NCBI GenBank assembly: GCA_009926135.1
Contig: RFPL01000001.1
Location: 248,001-312,000 of the forward strand
Source: Sphingomonadaceae bacterium
Lineage (GTDB): Bacteria > Pseudomonadota > Alphaproteobacteria > Sphingomonadales > Sphingomonadaceae
Direction of reading: 5' to 3'
Length of the DNA stretch: 64,000 nucleotides
This document shows positions 25,800 through 37,678 of this stretch, piece by piece (within the stretch, counting starts at the first letter, position 1; each line of letters opens with the position of its first letter). Made by a program: the position numbers and the translations under genes. The notes below the pieces were generated by a model. It was not told where the DNA came from, made no database searches, and saw only the letters and a list, made by a program, of their open reading frames with translations.

Positions 25800-27650
25800 C
25801 TATCCCATCTTCTTCAGCAGCCAGGCAAAGTTGCCGCCGCCGCGTGATACCAAGCCCTGCAGGACCAGTTGCTGGATCGGCTGCGGCCGGCCCTGGCCAT
25901 CAGCCCAGATGCTTTCCTCGACCGTTACCTGGCCCCCGGCGCGGAACTGCCAATAGGATCCATCGGGCAGGGCAAGGCCCGCACCCTGGCCGTCTTCGCT
26001 CAGGCCTACTTCGATTCCCGGGCCGAGATGGAAGCGGATCGCAAAGGCCACCTTGCCGCTCTTGCCTTTGCCGCCGGCGGGGATCAGCAGGTCCTCGCCG
26101 CGGAGTTCGGAACCCTCGTCACGCAGGATCAAGATGCGGCGGTGGGTCAGGCCATAGCGCTGGACATAGCCATTGTGGCTCGCTTCAAGCCGGGTCGCGC
26201 CCGACAGTTTTTCACCGGCAATGGTGCGGCGGTCCACCTCCACCTCGGAGACCCCGCTCCCGATCCGGCCATTGATCAGCACGGCCGTGGAGTTCACATC
26301 GTCCAGCGCCAGGGTTGAATGCGCTGCCGTGGCGCGCAGGCCCTGTTCAAGCCGCACCGGGATCAGGCCGCCGGCGCAGGCCGAGCCGCCGCAGTTGACC
26401 ACGATCCGCTGGCCCTGGTGCGAAAACTCGAAGGCGAGGGTCGAGGCGCAGCCCGAGCGGGCGTGCTTGGCGAGCGGAGGCGGAGCAGCATCGAACTGCA
26501 GGATCGATTTCTGGGCGACAGCGCGCTGGTAGCCCCACTGGCGCACGTCGCGCAGGGGCCGGGTGCGCACGCCAGAGGCGGCGATCAGCGCCGAAACGTC
26601 AGCCGCATCAACCGCCCAGCCGCCTTGCCATGATCCCAGCGAGCCATCGCCATGCGTCAGCGCCAGCAGCGGGGGGACCAGCAGGGCCAGGATTGCTTCC
26701 AGCGCGGCGGGCGGATCGCGCCGCACAGCGTTGTAGCAGGCGCGCAGCCGCACCAGCAGGGCGATGACCTCCATCTGCCCCAGCGGCGAGCGCGAGAGAA
26801 TGCCGCCATCGTCACCGACCAGCTCGCCCAGCGCCTTGATCAGGCCAGCCTCGCCGAACAGGCGGCGCGGCTTGCCATCGGGCAGCAGCAGGCCGGCGGC
26901 GACGATCCCGCACCAGCCGGCCACCTCGGCCAGCAGGTCTTCGGCGCGACCGACATTCTTGTCCAGCCAGCGCGCGGTATCGTTCATCGCCGCAAGCACG
27001 CGCGCGCGCTGGGCCTTGTCGTTGCCCGAGAGGATCAGCGGGGCGTGGACCAGCCAGTTCAGCTCACGCGTGCCGGCATTGGCAACGGTCCAGCCCGGTC
27101 CCTTACCCGGTCGGGAAGGCGGTGAAGGGTTGGCAGCCAGCCAGGCGGCAAGGACACGTTCCGCTACGGGCACGACCTGGTCGCGCGGGGCCGAAGCTTC
27201 GAGATCAGCCAGCCAGGCGAACGAATGAACCGCCCGCTCCAGCGGCGGGGCCATGCGTGCTGCGCTGGCAAAGTCGATCTGCGCGATCGGCGCCTTGACC
27301 CCATGGACCAGGAAATGTCCGGCCCGAATCGCCGTGCCGGCCATTTTCTGGCCGGGCAGTGGATTAAGCACGGTCGCCAGCAGGCGCGGCTTGGCGGGCT
27401 TGCGGAATGGTGCGGCCAGCGTCGATCCCGGCACGCCCATGCGATAGGCCAGTCGCAGCAGGCGTTCCCCCGCCCCCAGCGTCGGCGGCGAGAAATCGGC
27501 AAGGGCCAGGGCGCGGCCGGGTTCGACCAGCTCGCTCGGTGCCGGGCCAGCGCCATGATCGATCAGTGCAGCTTCGCTGCCCGCGCCCAGCGGGATGGCC
27601 ATGCCCGGCTCCGCGCGGTCCGGGGTCGTATCGTCACGGGTCTGGCTCAT
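25800..27650 (-). CDS. heparinase II/III family protein
   Basis: ATG at 27650; long ORF with heparinase II/III-like C-terminal ([33 protein letters not shown]); lies between purH and rpe. Confidence 0.85.
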
Positions 27651-27658
27651 CGCCTCGA

Positions 27659-28327
27659 TCATGCCCCGCCGGATTCCTTGAGCGCCGCGATGTTGGCGGC
27701 ATAGCGCTCTGGCCCGCCGCGGAAGGTCGCGGTCCCGGCCACCAGCACGTCCGCTCCGGCCATCACGCACAGCCGCGCCGTTTCGATATCGACCCCGCCA
27801 TCAACTTCCAGCCGGATGTCGCGCCCGCTCTTGTCGATCGCCTTGCGCACGGCCTCGATCTTGCGGAGCTGGCTGGTGATGAAGCTCTGCCCGCCAAACC
27901 CGGGATTGACGCTCATCACCAGGACGAGGTCAATGTCATCGATCAGGTAATCGAGCATCTTGGCCGGGGTGCCGGGATTGAGCGAAACGCCCGCCAGCTT
28001 GCCCAGCCCCTTGATCGCCTGGACCGTGCGGTGGATGTGTGGGCCAGCCTCGGGGTGCACCGTGATGATATCGGCGCCGGCCTCGGCAAAGGCGGCCAGG
28101 TAGCTGTCCACCGGACTGATCATCAGGTGGACGTCAAGCGGCTTGGTAGTGTGTGGGCGCAGCGCCTTTACTACCATCGGGCCAATGGTGATGTTGGGCA
28201 CGAAATGCCCATCCATCACGTCAACATGGATCCAGTCCGCTCCGGCGGCGTCAATGGCACGCACTTCCTCGCCCAGCCGGGCGAAGTCGGCAGACAGGAT
28301 CGAAGGTGAAATCAGCGGCTGGGGCAT
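27659..28327 (-). CDS. rpe: ribulose-phosphate 3-epimerase
   Basis: ORF 222 aa; [64 protein letters not shown]. Confidence 0.97.
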
Positions 28328-28480: not shown

Positions 28481-29344
28481 ATGATCGCCGCGCGCACACC
28501 CGCCCAAGCCATGGCCCTGCTGGCCCGTGAAACCGCCTGGCGACACGGCCAGACTCCGCGCGGGCTGGACGGGATTGCAGTGCCCCCGGGCCACCGGCTC
28601 ATCGCGGGTGGGCGCTATCTGCAATGGAGCGAAAGCGGGTACGGCTATTGCTACGCTCCGGGCGAGGGGATCGTGGTCGAGCGGCCCGCCGGGGCCGATC
28701 CGGACGAGGAAGCATTGTGGCTCTACGGGAGCGTCTATGCCGCGGTCGCCTGCCTCAATGGGTTCCTGCCGATCCATGCTTCGGCGGTGGCGCATGATGG
28801 CAAGGTCATTGCCTTCACCGGTCCGACCGGTGCCGGAAAATCGACGCTGGCGGCCGGGCTTGGCCAACTGGGCTTGCCGTTATTCTGCGACGACACCTTG
28901 CTGGTCGATCTGCACAGCACTGCCGGTCTGATCGCCATGCCCGGCCACAAGCGGTTGAAACTGCTGCCCGATGCCCTGGCCCTTGCCGGAGCGGACGCGG
29001 AGCAACCGGTCGGCGCGGAAACCGGCAAGTTCTATGCTCGGCCAGCCGCGGGGGACGTGGGCGAGCCTCTGCCGCTGGCGGGGTTGGTCTTCCTTGAGCC
29101 TGGGCCGGAAACCACCTGGCAAATTCTTCGCGGCGCGGAGCGGTTTGTCCGGCTGGAGGATGATCACTATACGCAGGACATCTTCCGCGAGGCGGCGCAA
29201 CCGGGCCGCGCGGGGCTGTTTGCGCTGCGGGCGCGGTTGGCAGGGCAGGTAGCGATGGTGCGGCTCAGCCGGCCGATCTCGGAGCAGGGGTATGCCGCTT
29301 CGCTGGCACTGGCGGCAGAGCGGATCAGGGAGTTTGAAGCATGA
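28481..29344 (+). CDS. HprK-like serine kinase of a lasso-peptide-type RiPP locus
   Basis: ATG at 28481 (ORF from TTG 28442); IHASAV...FTGPTGAGKSTLAAGL Walker A, LFCDDTLLVD; first gene of RiPP operon. Confidence 0.85.
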   Translation: MIAARTPAQAMALLARETAWRHGQTPRGLDGIAVPPGHRLIAGGRYLQWSESGYGYCYAPGEGIVVERPAGADPDEEALWLYGSVYAAVACLNGFLPIHASAVAHDGKVIAFTGPTGAGKSTLAAGLGQLGLPLFCDDTLLVDLHSTAGLIAMPGHKRLKLLPDALALAGADAEQPVGAETGKFYARPAAGDVGEPLPLAGLVFLEPGPETTWQILRGAERFVRLEDDHYTQDIFREAAQPGRAGLFALRARLAGQVAMVRLSRPISEQGYAASLALAAERIREFEA

Positions 29345-29604
29345 AGCTGGCCAAGGCCGACGGGCAGTTTACCGAGACCACGATTGATGACGAAGTGGTG
29401 GTGATGAGCCTGGCGAGCGGGGACTTCTTCTCGCTGACCGGTACCTCGCGGGCGATCTGGCTGGCATTGGACCAGCACCACGACCGGATCGGCCTGGTCA
29501 CCTGGGCGGCGGCGGAGTTCGGGGCTGACGCCGAGGCGATTGCCGGCGACGTCGATGCCTTCCTGGCCCAGCTTGCCGCCGCCGGATTGCTCAGCGCGGC
29601 ATGA
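29341..29604 (+). CDS. PqqD family protein (lasso B1 / RiPP recognition element)
   Basis: ORF 87 aa; FTETTIDDEVVVMSLASGDFFSLTGTSRAIWLAL...; 4-nt overlaps with both neighbours. Confidence 0.9.
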   Translation: MKLAKADGQFTETTIDDEVVVMSLASGDFFSLTGTSRAIWLALDQHHDRIGLVTWAAAEFGADAEAIAGDVDAFLAQLAAAGLLSAA

Positions 29605-30002
29605 TCCGCTGGCGCCTGCTGGTGGCCGAGGCCCTGGTCCTGCTGCTGGTCGCACGGCTGCTGGTGGCGGGCTTGCGCTTTGGCTGGTGGCGGTCTCTGC
29701 TCGGGCCGGTGGCCGCCGCTCCGGCAACGGCACGGGCCAGTGCCAATGATCGCCAGTTGGCCCGCGCGGTCGATCGTGCAGCGCTGCGCCTGCCTGGGCA
29801 GAGCAAGTGCCTGCCGCGCGCGATGACGCTGCGCTGGATGCTGGCCCGCCGCGATCGGCCCGGACAGCTGGTCATCGCCGTGCTGCCCGGCGCGGTGCGG
29901 GGCGGCCTCGACAATCTTCATGCCTGGGTCGAGAGCGGCGGCGAGATCCTGATCGGGGAACTCGATCAGCCGTTCCGCCCGTTGGCGCGTTTCGGCCACT
30001 AG
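29601..30002 (+). CDS. lasso peptide biosynthesis B2 protein (transglutaminase-like leader peptidase)
   Basis: ORF 133 aa; LPGQSKCLPRAMTLRWMLARR...LVIAVLPG...LDNLHAWVESGGEIL with catalytic Cys and His positions. Confidence 0.9.
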   Translation: MIRWRLLVAEALVLLLVARLLVAGLRFGWWRSLLGPVAAAPATARASANDRQLARAVDRAALRLPGQSKCLPRAMTLRWMLARRDRPGQLVIAVLPGAVRGGLDNLHAWVESGGEILIGELDQPFRPLARFGH

Positions 30003-30073
30003 CCAGCCCCTTGCAGGATATGTATAAACTCTGTCAAAGGGCCGGGTCGCCCGCACCAGCGGAGTTGTAAACG

Positions 30074-30202
30074 ATGTCGCAGCAGAAGAAGTCGCAGGGC
30101 AAGGTCTGGACCAAGCCGGAACTGGTGCGGCTTGGACAACTGGCCGATGTCGGTCCTTCGCCGAACCCGGGTGCCGCACAGGGAATCAATAACCGCTCCT
30201 GA
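30074..30202 (+). CDS. candidate RiPP precursor peptide (42 aa), lasso-type leader
   Basis: Manual translation MSQQKKSQGKVWTKPELVRLGQLADVGPSPNPGAAQGINNRS*; GGAG 9 nt upstream of ATG; WxxPxLxxxG matches the YxxPxLxxxG leader motif with W for Y; sits between B2 and cyclase genes. Confidence 0.85.
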   Translation: MSQQKKSQGKVWTKPELVRLGQLADVGPSPNPGAAQGINNRS

Positions 30203-30238
30203 GCGTGAAGGGCCTGTGTTGAGCGCCTTGCTGCCAAC

Positions 30239-32155
30239 TTGATTGCCCTGGATTGGCAGCGCTCGGCGGCGACCGAGGCCACTGCCGTGCTACTGGCCCA
30301 ATCCCTTGCTGCTGGCAGCGGTCGCCTTGCTGGTGCTCGTGCAATCGGGGGCTGCAACGTCGCCGCGTTGCTGCCTCACGCCGACCAGCGCCGCAGCCGC
30401 GCCTGGCAGCCAGTCACGGTCGGGCCACTGGTCGTGCTCTTTGCCGGCCACATCGACAATGCGCGCGAGATCGCCGGGGCGCTGGACGGCGAATACCCCG
30501 GCGATTTGCCCGACCCCGCCAAGCTGGCGCGGCTCTATGGCCAGGCCCGGTTGACCTGGGGCGATGGTGCGGACCTGCGGCTGATCGGGGAATATGCCGC
30601 AATCCTGTTTGATCCCGCGGCGCAAGTCTTGCGGTTGATCCGCAGTCCGCTGCGCGCGCCGCCGCTCCATGTCCATGCCCGTGGCGGGCGGATCATCGCC
30701 GCCTCCGTCCCGCGGGCGATCTTTGCCTGCGGCGTGCCGCAGCGGATCAACGAAGCCAAGTTTGCCGACAATGCCCTGTTCAACCCCGGGGACCACCGAC
30801 AAGGGTGGTTTGAGGGCGTGGATTATGTCCCGCTCGGCACCGAGCTGCGGTTCGATCCCGCCGGGATGCGCGCGCGCCGTTATCACGATCTTTACAGCCT
30901 GCCCAAGGTGCGGCTGGGCAGCGATGCGGAATACCTTGAAGCTGCGCACAGCCTGCTGGCAGAAGCGACCCGCGCGGCGCTGCGTGGCCGTCAGCGTCCC
31001 GCGATCATGCTTTCTGGTGGGCTGGACTCCCCCCAAGTCGCGGCCAAGGCGCTGGCCGAAATGCCGGCGGGCGGCAGCCTTCACGCCTTTACCTTCACGG
31101 TCGAGCCGGCGTGGGACGGCCATGTCAGTGCCGGGCAGTTCGGGGACGAGCGCCCCAATGTCGAAGCCTTCGCGGCGCTGCATCCCCGGTTGGTGACTCA
31201 TTTCGAAGACAATGCCGGATCAGGCTTCGATGCAGGGCTGGCGGAGATGTTCTTTGCCACGGGTTCGGCCACGATCAACCAGTCCAACTTTTCCCACTTC
31301 CACGCGTTGTGGCGCGGCGCGCGGACGGCGGGCTGCGACGTGGTGCTTGGCGCTGACTATGGCAACTTCACCTTCAGTGCCGAGGGCGGCTGGGGCTTTC
31401 CGGAATACCTGCTGCGCGGGCGCTGGCGGCAATTGTACCGCGCGCTGTGCCATGCCGGGGCTGATGGCCGCTCGCTGCTGCGGCGGTTCCTGGCGCTCAG
31501 CGTGCTACCCTTCTTCCCTGCGCCGCTGTGGCACTGGCAACGGCAGCTGCGGGGGCAGCCGGACGTGTTCGCGATCGCTTCGCCACTGCGGGCCGACTAT
31601 GCCAAGGCTTCCGGCGCACGGGATCGCGCCCGCCGGGCTGGCCAGCCCGTCCGGCGCTGGCCGGAACTGGGCCGCTGGCGCGAGTTCGAGCTATTCCAGC
31701 GCAATGACCATTGCGACGTGATGCATGGGTTCGAGCAGATCTACGGCATTCCCCAGCGCGATCCCACGGCCTACCGACCTTTTGTCGAATTCTGCCTGGG
31801 CCTGCCCACCGACCTGTTCCTGCGCGATGGACAGACCCGCTGGCTCGCGCGTGAAATGGCGCGCGGGATCATGCCCGAAGCCCAGCGGCTGGAGACCCGC
31901 CACGGCCGGCACGGCGCCGACTGGCACCTCAAGCTGACCCGGCGGCGGGCCGAGCTGCTGGCCGAGGTCGAGCGGCTCGCGGAAAGTGAAAGGCTGAGCG
32001 CCATGATCGACTTTCCCCGGATCCGCCGCGCGCTGGAAGACTGGCCGAAGAGCGGCGCTGTGCCGGTGGAAGAGCGCTTGCTGCGCGAAGCTGCAGTGCC
32101 GCGCGCGATCATGCTGGCGCGCTACGTCAACCACATCGAAGGACGTAACCAATGA
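30239..32155 (+). CDS. asparagine synthetase-like protein (lasso C / cyclase homologue)
   Basis: ORF 638 aa, apparent TTG start; AIMLSGGLDSPQVAAKAL PP-loop motif; degenerate glutaminase-like N-domain. Confidence 0.9.
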   Translation: MIALDWQRSAATEATAVLLAQSLAAGSGRLAGARAIGGCNVAALLPHADQRRSRAWQPVTVGPLVVLFAGHIDNAREIAGALDGEYPGDLPDPAKLARLYGQARLTWGDGADLRLIGEYAAILFDPAAQVLRLIRSPLRAPPLHVHARGGRIIAASVPRAIFACGVPQRINEAKFADNALFNPGDHRQGWFEGVDYVPLGTELRFDPAGMRARRYHDLYSLPKVRLGSDAEYLEAAHSLLAEATRAALRGRQRPAIMLSGGLDSPQVAAKALAEMPAGGSLHAFTFTVEPAWDGHVSAGQFGDERPNVEAFAALHPRLVTHFEDNAGSGFDAGLAEMFFATGSATINQSNFSHFHALWRGARTAGCDVVLGADYGNFTFSAEGGWGFPEYLLRGRWRQLYRALCHAGADGRSLLRRFLALSVLPFFPAPLWHWQRQLRGQPDVFAIASPLRADYAKASGARDRARRAGQPVRRWPELGRWREFELFQRNDHCDVMHGFEQIYGIPQRDPTAYRPFVEFCLGLPTDLFLRDGQTRWLAREMARGIMPEAQRLETRHGRHGADWHLKLTRRRAELLAEVERLAESERLSAMIDFPRIRRALEDWPKSGAVPVEERLLREAAVPRAIMLARYVNHIEGRNQ

Positions 32156-33849
32156 GCGGCGGCTCCCCCTCCGGCCTCCCCGATCTGCTGACCGGAAGGC
32201 AACACGGCCAGGCGCTGCAGCTCAGCCTGTTGATGCTGGCATCCGCCCTGACCGAAGGCCTTGGGTTGGCGTTGCTGGTGCCGCTGCTGGCCCTGCTGCT
32301 GCCCGCCGGCGGGGTTGCTGGACCGGACTGGCTGGCTGGCTTCATGCCAACGTGGCTGGGATTGGAAGGGCTGCTTGCGGGCTTTGTCGGGCTGGTGCTG
32401 CTGCGCGCCGTCATTGCCCTGCTGCGAACCCGCGCCGCGCTCGAACTGGAACTGGCCGTGGTCAATGGTCTGCGCCAGCGAACCTGGCGGGCGCTGCTTC
32501 ATGCCGACTGGCGATTTTTGTCGGGGCTGCGCCGCTCGCAGCAGGCCAGCCTGTTAATCAGCAACCTCGACCGCGTCGGCTTCGGGCTTAACCAGGCGCT
32601 GGCGGGGTTCTCCGCTGCGGTCACGCTGCTGGCGCTCGGCCTGGCCGCGCTGGCCATCTCGCCACTGCTGGCGCTAGCGGCGGGTGCTGGCTGCGCCCTG
32701 GTCCTGCTGGCCTATGCGGGTCTGCGCCAGCGTGCGGCCAGCGAGGGAGCGGCGCTGGGCCGGGCGTGGGATCAGGTCCATGCGGCGCTGCATGACGGCC
32801 TTGCGGCCTTGCGACTGACCAAGGCGAGCGGCGCTGAAGCACAGATGGAGCGCGATGCGGCCGAGGCCTTTTCTGGTCTGGCGGCGGCGCGGCGCAGCTT
32901 CGTAAGCAATGCCAGCCTTGGCGCGCTGGTGCTGCATGGCGGCGGGGCCGTAGTGCTGGCCGTGCTGGTCTGGCTCGCGATATCGCGCTGGGCAGTCCCG
33001 CTTGTATCGCTGCTGCCGATGGCGGCATTGTTCGCCCGCGCCGTGCCGCTGTTGGGGGCCGTGCAGGAGGCCTGGCAGCAATGGCATCATGCGCGGCCGG
33101 CACTGGCCGAATCGCGGGCGTTGATTGTTTCGGCCGAAGCCGCGTGTGAGCCACCCGTGCGCGCCGACGCAGCGCCGCAGCTGGCTCAGGCGATCACGCT
33201 GGCAGGCGCCGTGGTGCACTATGCCGGCCAGCCCGCCGCGGCGGTGGATGCGGTCTCGCTGGTAGTGCCGGCCGGCAAGATCACGGCCCTGGTCGGCCCT
33301 TCAGGGGCTGGCAAGAGCACGCTGGCCGACCTTTTGGCTGGTCTGCTCGCCCCCGACCGGGGATTGGTCGCGATCGATGGGGTGCCGCTTGATCCGGCGC
33401 ACCAGCGCGCCTGGCGCGGCCAGGTGGCCTATATCGCGCAGGAACCGCTGCTGCTGGCGGCGAGCCTTCGCGAGAACCTGCGGTGGGGCGCGCCCAATGC
33501 AACTGATGCCCGGCTCTGGGCTGCCCTCGAAGATGCCGCGGCCGCTGATTTCGTACGCGCGCTGCCCGCCGGGCTGGACACGCTGCTCGGCGATGGCGGA
33601 CGCGCGCTGTCGGGCGGTGAGCGGCAACGGTTGATGCTGGCCCAGGCGCTGCTGCGCGATCCGCAAATGTTGATCCTGGATGAGGCAACCTCGGCGCTGG
33701 ATCCCGCGAACGAGGCGGCAATTGCGGCTGCGTTGGGGCGCCTGCGCGGGCGCATGACGATCCTGCTGATCGCCCACCGCGGCGTTTTGCTGGGCCGCGC
33801 CGATCGGATCATCCACCTTGATCGCGGCCGCGTGGTTGACGAATCCTGA
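32152..33849 (+). CDS. ABC transporter ATP-binding/permease protein (peptide exporter)
   Basis: ORF 565 aa; TM domain then VGPSGAGKSTLADLLAGLL, LSGGERQRLMLAQALLRDPQMLILDEATSALD. Confidence 0.93.
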   Translation: MSGGSPSGLPDLLTGRQHGQALQLSLLMLASALTEGLGLALLVPLLALLLPAGGVAGPDWLAGFMPTWLGLEGLLAGFVGLVLLRAVIALLRTRAALELELAVVNGLRQRTWRALLHADWRFLSGLRRSQQASLLISNLDRVGFGLNQALAGFSAAVTLLALGLAALAISPLLALAAGAGCALVLLAYAGLRQRAASEGAALGRAWDQVHAALHDGLAALRLTKASGAEAQMERDAAEAFSGLAAARRSFVSNASLGALVLHGGGAVVLAVLVWLAISRWAVPLVSLLPMAALFARAVPLLGAVQEAWQQWHHARPALAESRALIVSAEAACEPPVRADAAPQLAQAITLAGAVVHYAGQPAAAVDAVSLVVPAGKITALVGPSGAGKSTLADLLAGLLAPDRGLVAIDGVPLDPAHQRAWRGQVAYIAQEPLLLAASLRENLRWGAPNATDARLWAALEDAAAADFVRALPAGLDTLLGDGGRALSGGERQRLMLAQALLRDPQMLILDEATSALDPANEAAIAAALGRLRGRMTILLIAHRGVLLGRADRIIHLDRGRVVDES

Positions 33850-33914: not shown

Positions 33915-33988
33915 ACTGGCAGGCAATGCACCGGTTAGCGGTGCCGGGCGCGCATGCCAGGCTTCCCAACAAACAGGATGACGAAGCG

Positions 33989-34492
33989 ATGATCCAGCCC
34001 CGACGTATCCGCGCCGCGGCCCTCGCCCTTGCTGCCTTGACTGCGGTTTCGACTGCCTCGACGCCGATTGCCGCAAGCGCGCCGGTACCAGCCCCGGCGG
34101 GCTGCACTGGCCCGGCCAGCGGGACCTGGCTCAACGTGGTGATCGATGGCGTCCGCAATGGCAACGGCGTGGTCGCGATCACGCTCTATGCCGATGACTC
34201 GTCGAAGTTCCTGGTCAAGCGCGGCTCGCTTTATGTCGGCCGGGTCGAGGCCAATACCGGCACCACGCGAGGCTGCATCTTCGTGCCCAAGCCGGGGGTC
34301 TATGCCCTGGCGCTCTATCATGATGAGAACCGCGATGGCCGGTTTGACCGCACGGGCCTGGGCCTGCCGGCCGAAGGCTATGGCTTCTCGAACAATCCAG
34401 CGACGCTGGCCGGCTTGCCGCAGTTCCGCTCGGTTCGACTGAACGTGCCAAAGCCCGGGCTGACGACCCGGATCTCGCTGAAGTATCCCTAA
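33989..34492 (+). CDS. DUF2141-like exported protein
   Basis: ATG at 33989; signal peptide, LYHDENRDGRFDRTGLGLPAEGYGFSNNP typical of DUF2141. Confidence 0.88.
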   Translation: MIQPRRIRAAALALAALTAVSTASTPIAASAPVPAPAGCTGPASGTWLNVVIDGVRNGNGVVAITLYADDSSKFLVKRGSLYVGRVEANTGTTRGCIFVPKPGVYALALYHDENRDGRFDRTGLGLPAEGYGFSNNPATLAGLPQFRSVRLNVPKPGLTTRISLKYP

Positions 34493-35265
34493 GCGGGTCC
34501 GTAGATCTCGGGCAGTTCGCGCGGCGCCTGGTCTTCGGCCAGTTCATAAGCGCGCGGATCATCGACATCGAGCCACCAGGCCGTGCCGATATCCATCGTC
34601 GCCGCGCGCCCTGCATCCGCCAGCCGCTGCATCCCTTCGGACAGGCTCCCGGCCTTGCCCTCGGCAATCGCGGCACGAATTGCCTGCGCCAGTTCCGGCG
34701 TTGCCAGAAAGGCCCCGCAATCGACCGCATCGTAAGCGGCAATGGTCTTGCCAATGCCAGTGATGAAGCCGCGCCCGTCCAGCTTGACCCAGGTCGCGTC
34801 ATCGGGATCGACCAGCGGATTGTCGCACGCGAAGTCGACCGCCAGGGTCACGCCGCGATCTGGGCCGTGCTGCTGCGCCAGGTTGCGCAGGATTGATCCG
34901 GAAAAGATGTGGTCTGACATCATCAGCAAGTAATTGCCGTCAATAACGTCAGCGCCGGCCATGACCGACCAGCCGTTGGGCTTTGACCAGTCCTCCACCC
35001 GCTGGGCAACGACCGGAATCCCGACGCGTTCTGCTATCGCGGGCAGCGCCACCTCAATCCGTTCGGCCTCATGCCCGGTCACCACGACGACGCGCTGCAC
35101 CCCGGCTGCCCTTGCTTGCCGCGCGCCGAGTTCGAGCAGCGGAATTCCGGCGATTGGCGTAAGCGGCTTGGAATCGGAAACGTCACGCAGGCGGCTGCCG
35201 AAACCAGCGGCAATGATCAGGGCGTCCATGCAGGCATCCTCAAACAGAAACGGCGCCGGGATCAA
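34489..35265 (-). CDS. nucleotidyltransferase, inositol-1-phosphate cytidylyltransferase (IPCT)-like
   Basis: ORF 258 aa; MDALIIAAGFGSRLRDVSDSKPLTPIAGIPLLE; MMSDHIFSGSIL; ITGIGKTIAAYDAVDCGAFL; located next to MIPS. Confidence 0.8.
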   Translation of the reverse strand: MIPAPFLFEDACMDALIIAAGFGSRLRDVSDSKPLTPIAGIPLLELGARQARAAGVQRVVVVTGHEAERIEVALPAIAERVGIPVVAQRVEDWSKPNGWSVMAGADVIDGNYLLMMSDHIFSGSILRNLAQQHGPDRGVTLAVDFACDNPLVDPDDATWVKLDGRGFITGIGKTIAAYDAVDCGAFLATPELAQAIRAAIAEGKAGSLSEGMQRLADAGRAATMDIGTAWWLDVDDPRAYELAEDQAPRELPEIYGPA

Positions 35266-35297
35266 CCGGCGCCGTTCCTTGAACCAATTGGCTGGGC

Positions 35298-36398
35298 TTA
35301 TTCAGCAGCCAGCGCAGTGTCGGCGATGTATTCCTCAACCATCTGGGCGGCGAGGTCATCGTTGAACTGCTGCGGCGGATGCTTGCAGAAGTAGGCCGAG
35401 GCGCCGATCACGGCCCCGCCTTCGCCGCGGTCCAGCGCCAGCTTGGCGCAGCGGATCGCGTCCATGACGCAAGCGGCCGAGTTCGGGCTGTCTTCCACCG
35501 AGAGGCGCAGTTCCAGTTCCATCGGCACGTTGCCCCACTGCAGGCCTTCGAGGCGCAGGAAGCAAAGCTTGTTGTCCTTCTGCCAGGGAACATAGTCCGA
35601 CGGGCCGACGTGGATGTTCTCGTCTTCCAGGCGCTGGGCGAGCATGGCCTGGACGGCTTCAGTCTTCGATTCCTTCTTGGAACCAAGACGCTGGCGGTCC
35701 AGCATGTTCATGAAGTCGGTGTTGCCACCAGTGTTGAGCTGGTAGGTCCGCTCCACCGTCACGCCGCGAGCGGCGAACAGGCTGGAGAGCACGCGGTGAA
35801 CGATCGTGGCGCCGACCTGGGCCTTGATGTCGTCACCCACGATCGGGATGTTCTTGGCCCGGAACTTGGCTTCCCATTCCGGGTTGCTGGCGATGAACAC
35901 CGGCATGCAGTTGACCACGGCAACGCCGGCTTCGAGCGCGCATTCCATGTAGAATTCGGTGGCGGCCTGCGAGCCGACGGGCAGGAAGTTGACGAGCACT
36001 TCTGCGCCAGAATCCTTGATCGCCTGGACGATGTCGGCGTGGCTGGGCTCGGCTGCGTCAGCAACGATGAAGCCCTTTTCACCGACCGTGGTCATGTGCG
36101 GAGCAACGCCGTCCGAAATCTTGCCCATGATCACCTTGGTGCCGGTCAGCGGCACTTCGGCCTGGAACACGGCGGTGTTGTTGGGCTTGGCGAAGATGGC
36201 TTCGGCAATATCCTTGCCGACCTTGCGGGCATCGACGTCGACGCCGAGCACGAAATCTACGTCACCCGCGCCAAAGCCGCCGATCTTGTCGTGGATCAGG
36301 CCCTGCGCGGAGTTGTTCTGGCGATAGTAGGTAACCCCCTGAACCAGCGAACTGGCGCAGTTGCCAACGCCAATAATGGCGACCTTGATCGGCTTCAT
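35298..36398 (-). CDS. myo-inositol-1-phosphate (inositol-3-phosphate) synthase
   Basis: ORF 366 aa; MKPIKVAIIGVGNCASSLVQGVTYY, VNFLPVGSQAATEFYMECALEAGVAVVNCMPVFIAS, GDDIKAQVGATIVHR, LNTGGNTDFMNM. Confidence 0.95.
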   Translation of the reverse strand: MKPIKVAIIGVGNCASSLVQGVTYYRQNNSAQGLIHDKIGGFGAGDVDFVLGVDVDARKVGKDIAEAIFAKPNNTAVFQAEVPLTGTKVIMGKISDGVAPHMTTVGEKGFIVADAAEPSHADIVQAIKDSGAEVLVNFLPVGSQAATEFYMECALEAGVAVVNCMPVFIASNPEWEAKFRAKNIPIVGDDIKAQVGATIVHRVLSSLFAARGVTVERTYQLNTGGNTDFMNMLDRQRLGSKKESKTEAVQAMLAQRLEDENIHVGPSDYVPWQKDNKLCFLRLEGLQWGNVPMELELRLSVEDSPNSAACVMDAIRCAKLALDRGEGGAVIGASAYFCKHPPQQFNDDLAAQMVEEYIADTALAAE

Positions 36399-36769
36399 TA
36401 GATTTCAATCCTTCTCGAACGGCGCAGCGCGGCCTCAATGAAAGGTCGCCCCATTGTAAAATCGCGCGCCAAAAGCAAGAAGTTTGGCGCAGGTCAAGCC
36501 GAATGCAGAAAACCGGCGGCTGCCAGCGGCAACCGTTTGCTTCCCGTTCCGACCACCGATTCCAGTTGATTCCCTTCGGAATATGACCGGACCCGGATCG
36601 TGCGCCTGCGCAATGCAGGCTTACAAGCATAGCACCAATCCTGCGCGAGGCAAATCCGGACTGGGCAAACTGTGCAGGACTCCTCTTACAGGCCTCTTGT
36701 GAGGCCGCCCTCTGCCCCTCTAAGGGGAAGGCAGGCCTGCAGCGGCCGGGTCGAACAGGTGAGGGCAAG

Positions 36770-37678
36770 GTGGATCAGGTCGTGGCGGGATTGGAACGGG
36801 CAAAGCCAGTGCGGCCGCAGCGCCCGCGCGAACTGCAGGACCCGCTTAATCATTACCTCTATCACCCGCTGGCGTGGCAGCTGGCGCGCGGCCTGGCGCA
36901 TACGCCGATAACCCCCAACATGGTTTCGGTCCTTGGCGGGCTGATGGTGGTTGCCGCCGGGATTGCCTATACAAATTTAGCCTGGCCGGTGGGCGCGGCG
37001 CTGGGCATGGCGCTGCACATGGGCTGGCACGTGGTCGACGGGGCCGATGGGGATCTGGCGCGGATGACCGGTCGGTCCAGTCCGATCGGTGAGATGGTCG
37101 ACGGCATCTGCGACTATGCCAGCCATATCGTGCTCTACCTGATCCTGGGTGCGGTGCTGGCGGGTGAGACCGGGTTCTTCAGCGGCGCTGCGGCATGGAT
37201 CCTGCTGGTGGTGGCCGGGGTCAGCCATGCGGTGCAATCCAACCATGTCGAGGTCCAGCGCCGCCAGTACCAGTGGTATGTCTATGGCACGCCGTGGATC
37301 CGTCACAGCCATGGTCAGGCGGGTTCGGCCACCAGCAAGAGCCTGTTCGGGGTATTTGTCTCGGCCTATCTCAACGCCGCCAGCGGGATGACCCCGCATG
37401 CGCTGCGGATTGATGCGGCGGTCGATGCGGCCAAGGGCGATCCTGCCCGCCTTGCGGCGATTGCCGCCGCCGTCCGCGCCGAAGCGCCCCCGCTGCTGTT
37501 GATGTGCAAGGTGCTTGGCCCCAACCCGCGCGCGATCGTGCTCGGGCTGTCGATGTTTGCCGGATCGCCGCTCTATTACATGATCTACCAGGCAGTCGTG
37601 CTGAATGTGCTGCTGGCAATTTCGGTGCTGATGCACAATGCTGCGGCGCGGCGCATCGCGGCAAAGATCGGAGCCTAG
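36770..37678 (+). CDS. CDP-alcohol phosphatidyltransferase family protein
   Basis: ORF 302 aa, GTG start; DGADGDLARMTGRSSPIGEMVDGICD matches the DxxDGxxAR(x8-12)GxxxDxxxD signature. Confidence 0.92.
   Translation: MDQVVAGLERAKPVRPQRPRELQDPLNHYLYHPLAWQLARGLAHTPITPNMVSVLGGLMVVAAGIAYTNLAWPVGAALGMALHMGWHVVDGADGDLARMTGRSSPIGEMVDGICDYASHIVLYLILGAVLAGETGFFSGAAAWILLVVAGVSHAVQSNHVEVQRRQYQWYVYGTPWIRHSHGQAGSATSKSLFGVFVSAYLNAASGMTPHALRIDAAVDAAKGDPARLAAIAAAVRAEAPPLLLMCKVLGPNPRAIVLGLSMFAGSPLYYMIYQAVVLNVLLAISVLMHNAAARRIAAKIGA

Follow-up and report, generated by a model that had tools for sequence, protein, structure and literature searches.

A lasso-type RiPP locus in the window (the whole stretch of DNA analysed, 64,000 nucleotides from a Sphingomonadaceae bacterium) encodes a precursor whose predicted core lacks Asp and Glu, and a glutamine, Q36, fills the column in which relatives carry their ring-closing residue. 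Since this Gln recurs in nearly all related clusters, we favor, at a probability of roughly 0.6, a lasso-type RiPP whose ring is closed directly through the Gln side-chain amide, with the chemistry inferred from comparative evidence. Q36 at the acceptor position had escaped the first-pass annotation of this DNA, which reported a lasso-type locus without a ring-forming acid.

As that annotation had it, a six-gene set (K, B1, B2, A, C and D) lies at positions 28481-33849, with all genes on the + strand. The 4-nt overlaps that it described are found between K and B1, B1 and B2, and C and D, but not around A, which has gaps of 71 and 36 bases on its two sides. The features are as follows.

28481..29344, + strand: K, HprK-like peptide kinase (open frame from TTG 28442)
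29341..29604, + strand: B1, PqqD-like RiPP recognition element, RRE (PF05402, E 4.5e-15)
29601..30002, + strand: B2, leader peptidase, transglutaminase-like Cys protease (NF033537 and PF13471, Transglut_core3)
30074..30202, + strand: A, 42-aa precursor, aligned with homologues
30107..30124, + strand: RRE-binding leader motif WxxPxL (WTKPEL); W12, P15, G21 and D25 invariant in the alignment
30155..30199, + strand: predicted core PSPNPGAAQGINNRS, cut after D-V-G with Val at -2, from comparison with the columns of the Asp8-type outgroup
30179..30181, + strand: CAG codon of Q36, the proposed ring-closing Gln at core position 9; column kept in 55 clusters
30239..32155, + strand: C, asparagine-synthetase-type cyclase (PF00733, Asn_synthase; TTG start)
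31013..31030, + strand: ATP pyrophosphatase loop SGGLDS, C residues 259-264, kept in Gln-type and Asp-type enzymes
31883..31885, + strand: Gln549 of C; Gln in 44/55 Gln/Glu-type enzymes, Val/Ile/Tyr in Asp-type
31910..31912, + strand: His558 of C; His in 48/55 Gln/Glu-type enzymes, Gln in 21/21 Asp-type or outgroup
32152..33849, + strand: D, ABC exporter (PF00005, PF00664)

The window thus holds the genes that define a lasso cluster: a precursor, a B1/B2 leader peptidase and an asparagine-synthetase-type C gene. B2 scores 77.9 bits against the lasso B2 model NF033537 (cut-off 33), while K matches TIGR04352 with E 5.5e-10, far below the cut-off of that model, and carries a Walker A motif (GPTGAGKS) and a DD motif. 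C is related to the lasso isopeptide-bond-forming cyclases of NF033535 but does not fall inside the model (101.9 bits, E 3.5e-29; cut-off 525 bits). Its homologues likewise start with MIA-, as C of the window does from its TTG start. The AlphaFold model of C has a pLDDT of 91.7, and its best PDB folds are TsnB9, beta-lactam synthetase and asparagine synthetase.

The precursor of the window, MSQQKKSQGKVWTKPELVRLGQLADVGPSPNPGAAQGINNRS, contains only two acidic residues, E16 and D25, and every residue beyond D25 is non-acidic, exactly as first reported. The WxxPxL sequence is described as an RRE-binding leader motif (PMC13381572), and leaders with Ile/Val at -2 are described for lasso precursors of Sphingomonadales (PMC10368454). 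At -2, where lasso leaders carry Thr or Ile/Val, the window has Val and nearly all relatives have Val or Ile. The core of the window could start one residue later than PSPNPGAAQGINNRS. The precursor matched no NCBIfam model, NF033524 (paeninodin family) included, which two Asp-type relatives match weakly, below its cut-off. The acid-free core is neither chance nor a sequencing slip: dozens of other genomes have closely similar leaders next to the same C gene, and 38 of the 55 cores of the clade lack Asp and Glu entirely, while core positions 7-9 are free of both in the window and in 40/55 clade members. A second precursor of the window type was not found in the same genome (the sole significant match was the window's own, the next having E 0.27), and a second, acid-bearing one was rejected there since neither single-sequence nor profile search returned any.

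C homologues were collected from 54/299 genomes of the family and 48/299 of the order, along with 29 named loci, nearly all from Sphingomonadales (for example Novosphingobium, Sphingomonas, Qipengyuania, Croceicoccus and Pontixanthobacter). Small ORFs beside C with a WxxP leader motif were taken as precursors, 71 of which were paired with cyclases, and core boundaries were set manually by the rule Asp-Val/Ile-x|core, with Val/Ile at -2. In 55 related clusters the acceptor column holds Gln in 51 and Glu in four, at core position 8 or, in three clusters including the window, at position 9. Counted instead at a fixed position 8, the 55 distinct cores have Gln in 48, Glu in four and another residue in three, these three (window included) being the ones with Gln at 9. 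These cores have a Gln background of 3%. Examples of Q/E-type cores are GPPVPFAQAAGNKRS, GKPTPIVQAVNTKS and GPSGSGPQGTPLRS. In thirteen relatives whose leaders follow the same logic, the column holds Asp (for example AKNQPGND, QKRSGNTD and GTAQVFGD); their 13/13 count is no test of the column, because they were classed by that residue. Two further loci, L046 and L173, carry Asn, again an amide, at core position 9 and are acid-free at 7-9; Ser8 was considered as the acceptor in L046 and dropped in favor of Asn9, since L173 has the same pattern. The weakest cases are 11 Gln-type cores in which an Asp adjoins the Gln (position 7 or 9) and could serve instead. Outside Sphingomonadales, no Gln-type cluster was recognised in 289 genomes of the class, among which some hits yielded no precursor. 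At L097 and L090, second precursor-like ORFs lie downstream of C, for example WQAPVLLRLGTLDAVAHHKPGHQTPPGQCKKNPLLCS in L097.

The absence of an acid is thus heritable across the whole clade, which makes ring chemistry other than the standard one likely, as the first-pass annotation proposed; its list of candidate bonds (an ester, a different amide or a backbone bond) can be narrowed, because a nearly invariant Gln fills the acceptor column. A conserved acid in homologues, which it named as a refutation, is found only in part: the two closest relatives, L003 and L072, have Glu in the column, but both are nested within the Gln clade. Its statement that a canonical macrolactam is not possible is right for a standard Asp/Glu macrolactam as encoded but too strong as a rule on products, since Gln, if it lost ammonia, would give the ordinary isopeptide of a Glu lasso.

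One route to that isopeptide would be hydrolysis of Gln to Glu by C or a host enzyme, followed by ordinary Glu macrolactam formation. Four members naturally have Glu in the same column, Gln and Glu codons are one base apart, and the ATP site of C is kept, all of which speak for such a route. Yet Gln is retained in 51/55 clusters although Glu would yield the same product, and an unsystematic look at the loci noticed no deamidase gene. Moreover, the N-terminal amidotransferase domain lacks the glutaminase catalytic Cys after the start Met throughout the clade (C begins M-I-A-L, and relatives are similar), so that C probably has no glutaminase function. We therefore regard prior hydrolysis as rather unlikely. 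The strong preference for Gln over Glu suggests a role for the nitrogen or for the amide as such, whereas the four Glu members indicate that the amide nitrogen is not always needed. In known systems, putting Glu for Asp or Asp for Glu at the acceptor mostly stops production, and cyclases rarely tolerate the swap (PMC4960549).

The other end of the core offers C a different target. The C-terminal residue is Ser in 50/51 Gln cores and Thr in one, and asparagine-synthetase-like enzymes are known that amidate or nitrilate peptide C-termini (PMC13060819), so C might act on the Ser carboxylate (giving a head-to-tail ring, an amide or a nitrile), or convert Gln to a nitrile, with no ring between N-terminus and Gln. 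But Asp-type relatives end in Ser too, so that this residue fits the kinase; furthermore, Gln sits exactly in the acceptor column, and cyclase residue 558 changes together with the acceptor. Taken together, this makes action elsewhere than on a ring to Gln an improbable account. Past the Gln, short tails of 4-17 residues remain, with few aromatic or bulky side chains, which makes threading of the tail through the ring doubtful.

In the cyclase tree, one group of 56 (SH-aLRT 99) unites the Q/E-type rows with the two Asn9-type rows, and the Asp-type rows lie outside it. Glu appears at two places inside the Gln clade, and L172 (G462:C8:6000-16500), which has an acid-free Gln8 core, GTSGFNSQNAGRSFKSGGQS, falls within the Asp8 group and has a separate origin; acceptor-state changes on the tree number at least five. 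A Gln-type and an Asp9-type cluster, each with its own precursor, occur together in two Croceicoccus genomes and in one more genome of that genus group. Among loci with enough flank, counted by hand after removal of duplicates, 37/41 of the Q/E/N-type have the same ribulose-phosphate epimerase and heparinase-like neighbours as the window cluster, against none of some 20 Asp-type or outgroup loci. Because of these shared neighbours, the Q/E/N-type locus looks vertically inherited, and its fixed place on the chromosome in many genera suggests that it serves the physiology of the cell and is not a short-lived weapon. In the window the flanks (25800-28327; 33926-34492) comprise a heparinase II/III-like gene, a ribulose-phosphate 3-epimerase gene and a gene for a secreted DUF2141 protein; the first two border most Gln-type clusters in other genera and the DUF2141 gene borders many. 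Beyond them, at 34489-37678, lie adjacent genes for an NTP transferase, a myo-inositol-1-phosphate synthase and a CDP-alcohol phosphatidyltransferase, which may make up an inositol phospholipid pathway.

This conservation also bears on whether the clusters have decayed or are non-productive, so that the missing acid would have no chemical meaning. In one genome a cyclase copy has degenerated and carries three internal TGA stops (L070, G173:C1:2629394-2630146), and the genes are scattered in several genomes; against this, enzymes that share only 35-40% identity still come with the ORFs, the motifs and the Gln column preserved, and the locus keeps its chromosomal place. Decay is thus a highly improbable explanation.

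In many Gln-type genomes B2 and K lie outside the cluster, with homologues elsewhere. B2 homologues occur in 26/26 C-bearing genomes and in 10/25 without C, and K homologues in 26/26 and 8/25, counts that are associations only, because carriers and controls differ in relatedness; some of the unlinked copies belong to other lasso clusters. Their presence in all 26 carriers indicates that leader removal is likely retained in Gln-type systems, and we rejected absence of B2 from a cluster as a sign that the leader stays on, since every carrier tested has a B2 homologue elsewhere. A lone B2 leader peptidase gene lies far from the cluster in many Sphingomonadales (L130-L147).

Gln-type and Asp-type cyclases have further core residues in common besides SGGLDS, and the clearest difference between them is one loop that holds residues 549 and 558. 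Residue 558 in the 55 Gln/Glu-type enzymes is His in 48, Trp in four, and Gln, Pro and Asp in one each, the Asp being that of L172; it is Thr in both Asn9-type enzymes, and Gln occurs there in only 1/57 enzymes outside the Asp-type and outgroup set. Shared descent largely explains the correlation of 558 with the acceptor, because independent co-change events are few, and Fisher tests on these counts ignore that descent. Residue 558 aligns, at low confidence in a weakly aligned region, with S440 of McjC (hhalign of McjC against the clade covers the N-terminal part only, at 19% identity), a residue placed near the acceptor Glu8 by a published model; the S440Y change lowers yield to 2.4% (PMC11420955). 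A low-scoring hmmsearch alignment places the 549/558 loop over the 'RPKLGVHE' segment of beta-lactam synthetase. By the McjC alignment, residue 558 probably lies beside the acceptor position.

For ring closure on Gln, we propose that B1 would bind the WxxPxL leader, as known RREs do, and B2 would cut after Asp-Val-Gly. C would bind ATP and activate the side-chain amide of the conserved Gln, which the freed core N-terminus would then attack. On the model of paeninodin-type systems, K is probably the kinase of the C-terminal Ser, and D would export the product. Amide activation has a precedent in the asparagine-synthetase-like PesC, which uses ATP to make a nitrile from a peptide amide, probably via an AMP-imidate (PMC13060819); attack of an amine on a similar intermediate would by analogy give an amidine. 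We tentatively suggest that the cyclases of the clade use ATP to activate the amide of Gln (in a few, Asn) and form an amidine-linked, lasso-like macrocycle. An amidine, in which water is lost and the Gln nitrogen kept, is slightly more likely than an isopeptide formed with loss of NH3.

In the papers surveyed, the lasso class is always described with an Asp or Glu acceptor, and precursor finding that demands an acid would miss these genes. If the ring closes on Gln, the lasso class would be widened by a clade of 55 or more clusters in which Gln or its relatives take the acceptor place. The Gln-type clade would also add a new reaction to those of the asparagine-synthetase fold, for which residues 549 and 558 would offer a small enzyme switch open to testing.

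Among known systems, the paeninodin-type (HprK kinase-associated) lasso peptides share with the window the K, B1, B2, A, C, D gene set, the WxxP leader, the C-terminal Ser and a discrete RRE, but have an acid acceptor instead of Gln and Thr instead of Val/Ile at -2; their rings close on an acid. The macrocyclic amidine of bottromycin is made by an enzyme of a different family, YcaO. Bottromycin resembles the proposed product in its amidine-closed ring and differs in using a backbone amide, not a Gln side chain (PMC5103208). Linear polyphosphorylated peptides (LPP) combine an RRE, an HprK-like kinase and an exporter, as the window does, but have no cyclase, a protease of the signal-peptidase type and YxxP leaders (PMC13381572). 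PesC and the AS-like amidating enzymes have the asparagine-synthetase fold of C, and PesC, as proposed for C, activates a peptide amide with ATP; unlike the proposed action of C, it acts on the C-terminus, with ammonia from Gln and without a ring, a distinction drawn from its description (PMC13060819).

The Ile/Val(-2) lasso peptides, BsfA and its Sphingomonadales relatives, share Val/Ile before the cut, a linked kinase and the order with the window (PMC10368454). The text of that paper does not contain the word 'glutamine', a 2026 review gives Asp/Glu acceptors only (PMC13352647), and searches of the open literature returned no Gln-acceptor lasso, although subscription papers or supplements may list such precursors. 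The BsfA ring closes on Asp8 (PMC10368454), whereas the window has Gln. The conserved Gln of the clade, together with the change at cyclase residue 558, points to an undescribed ring-closing route.
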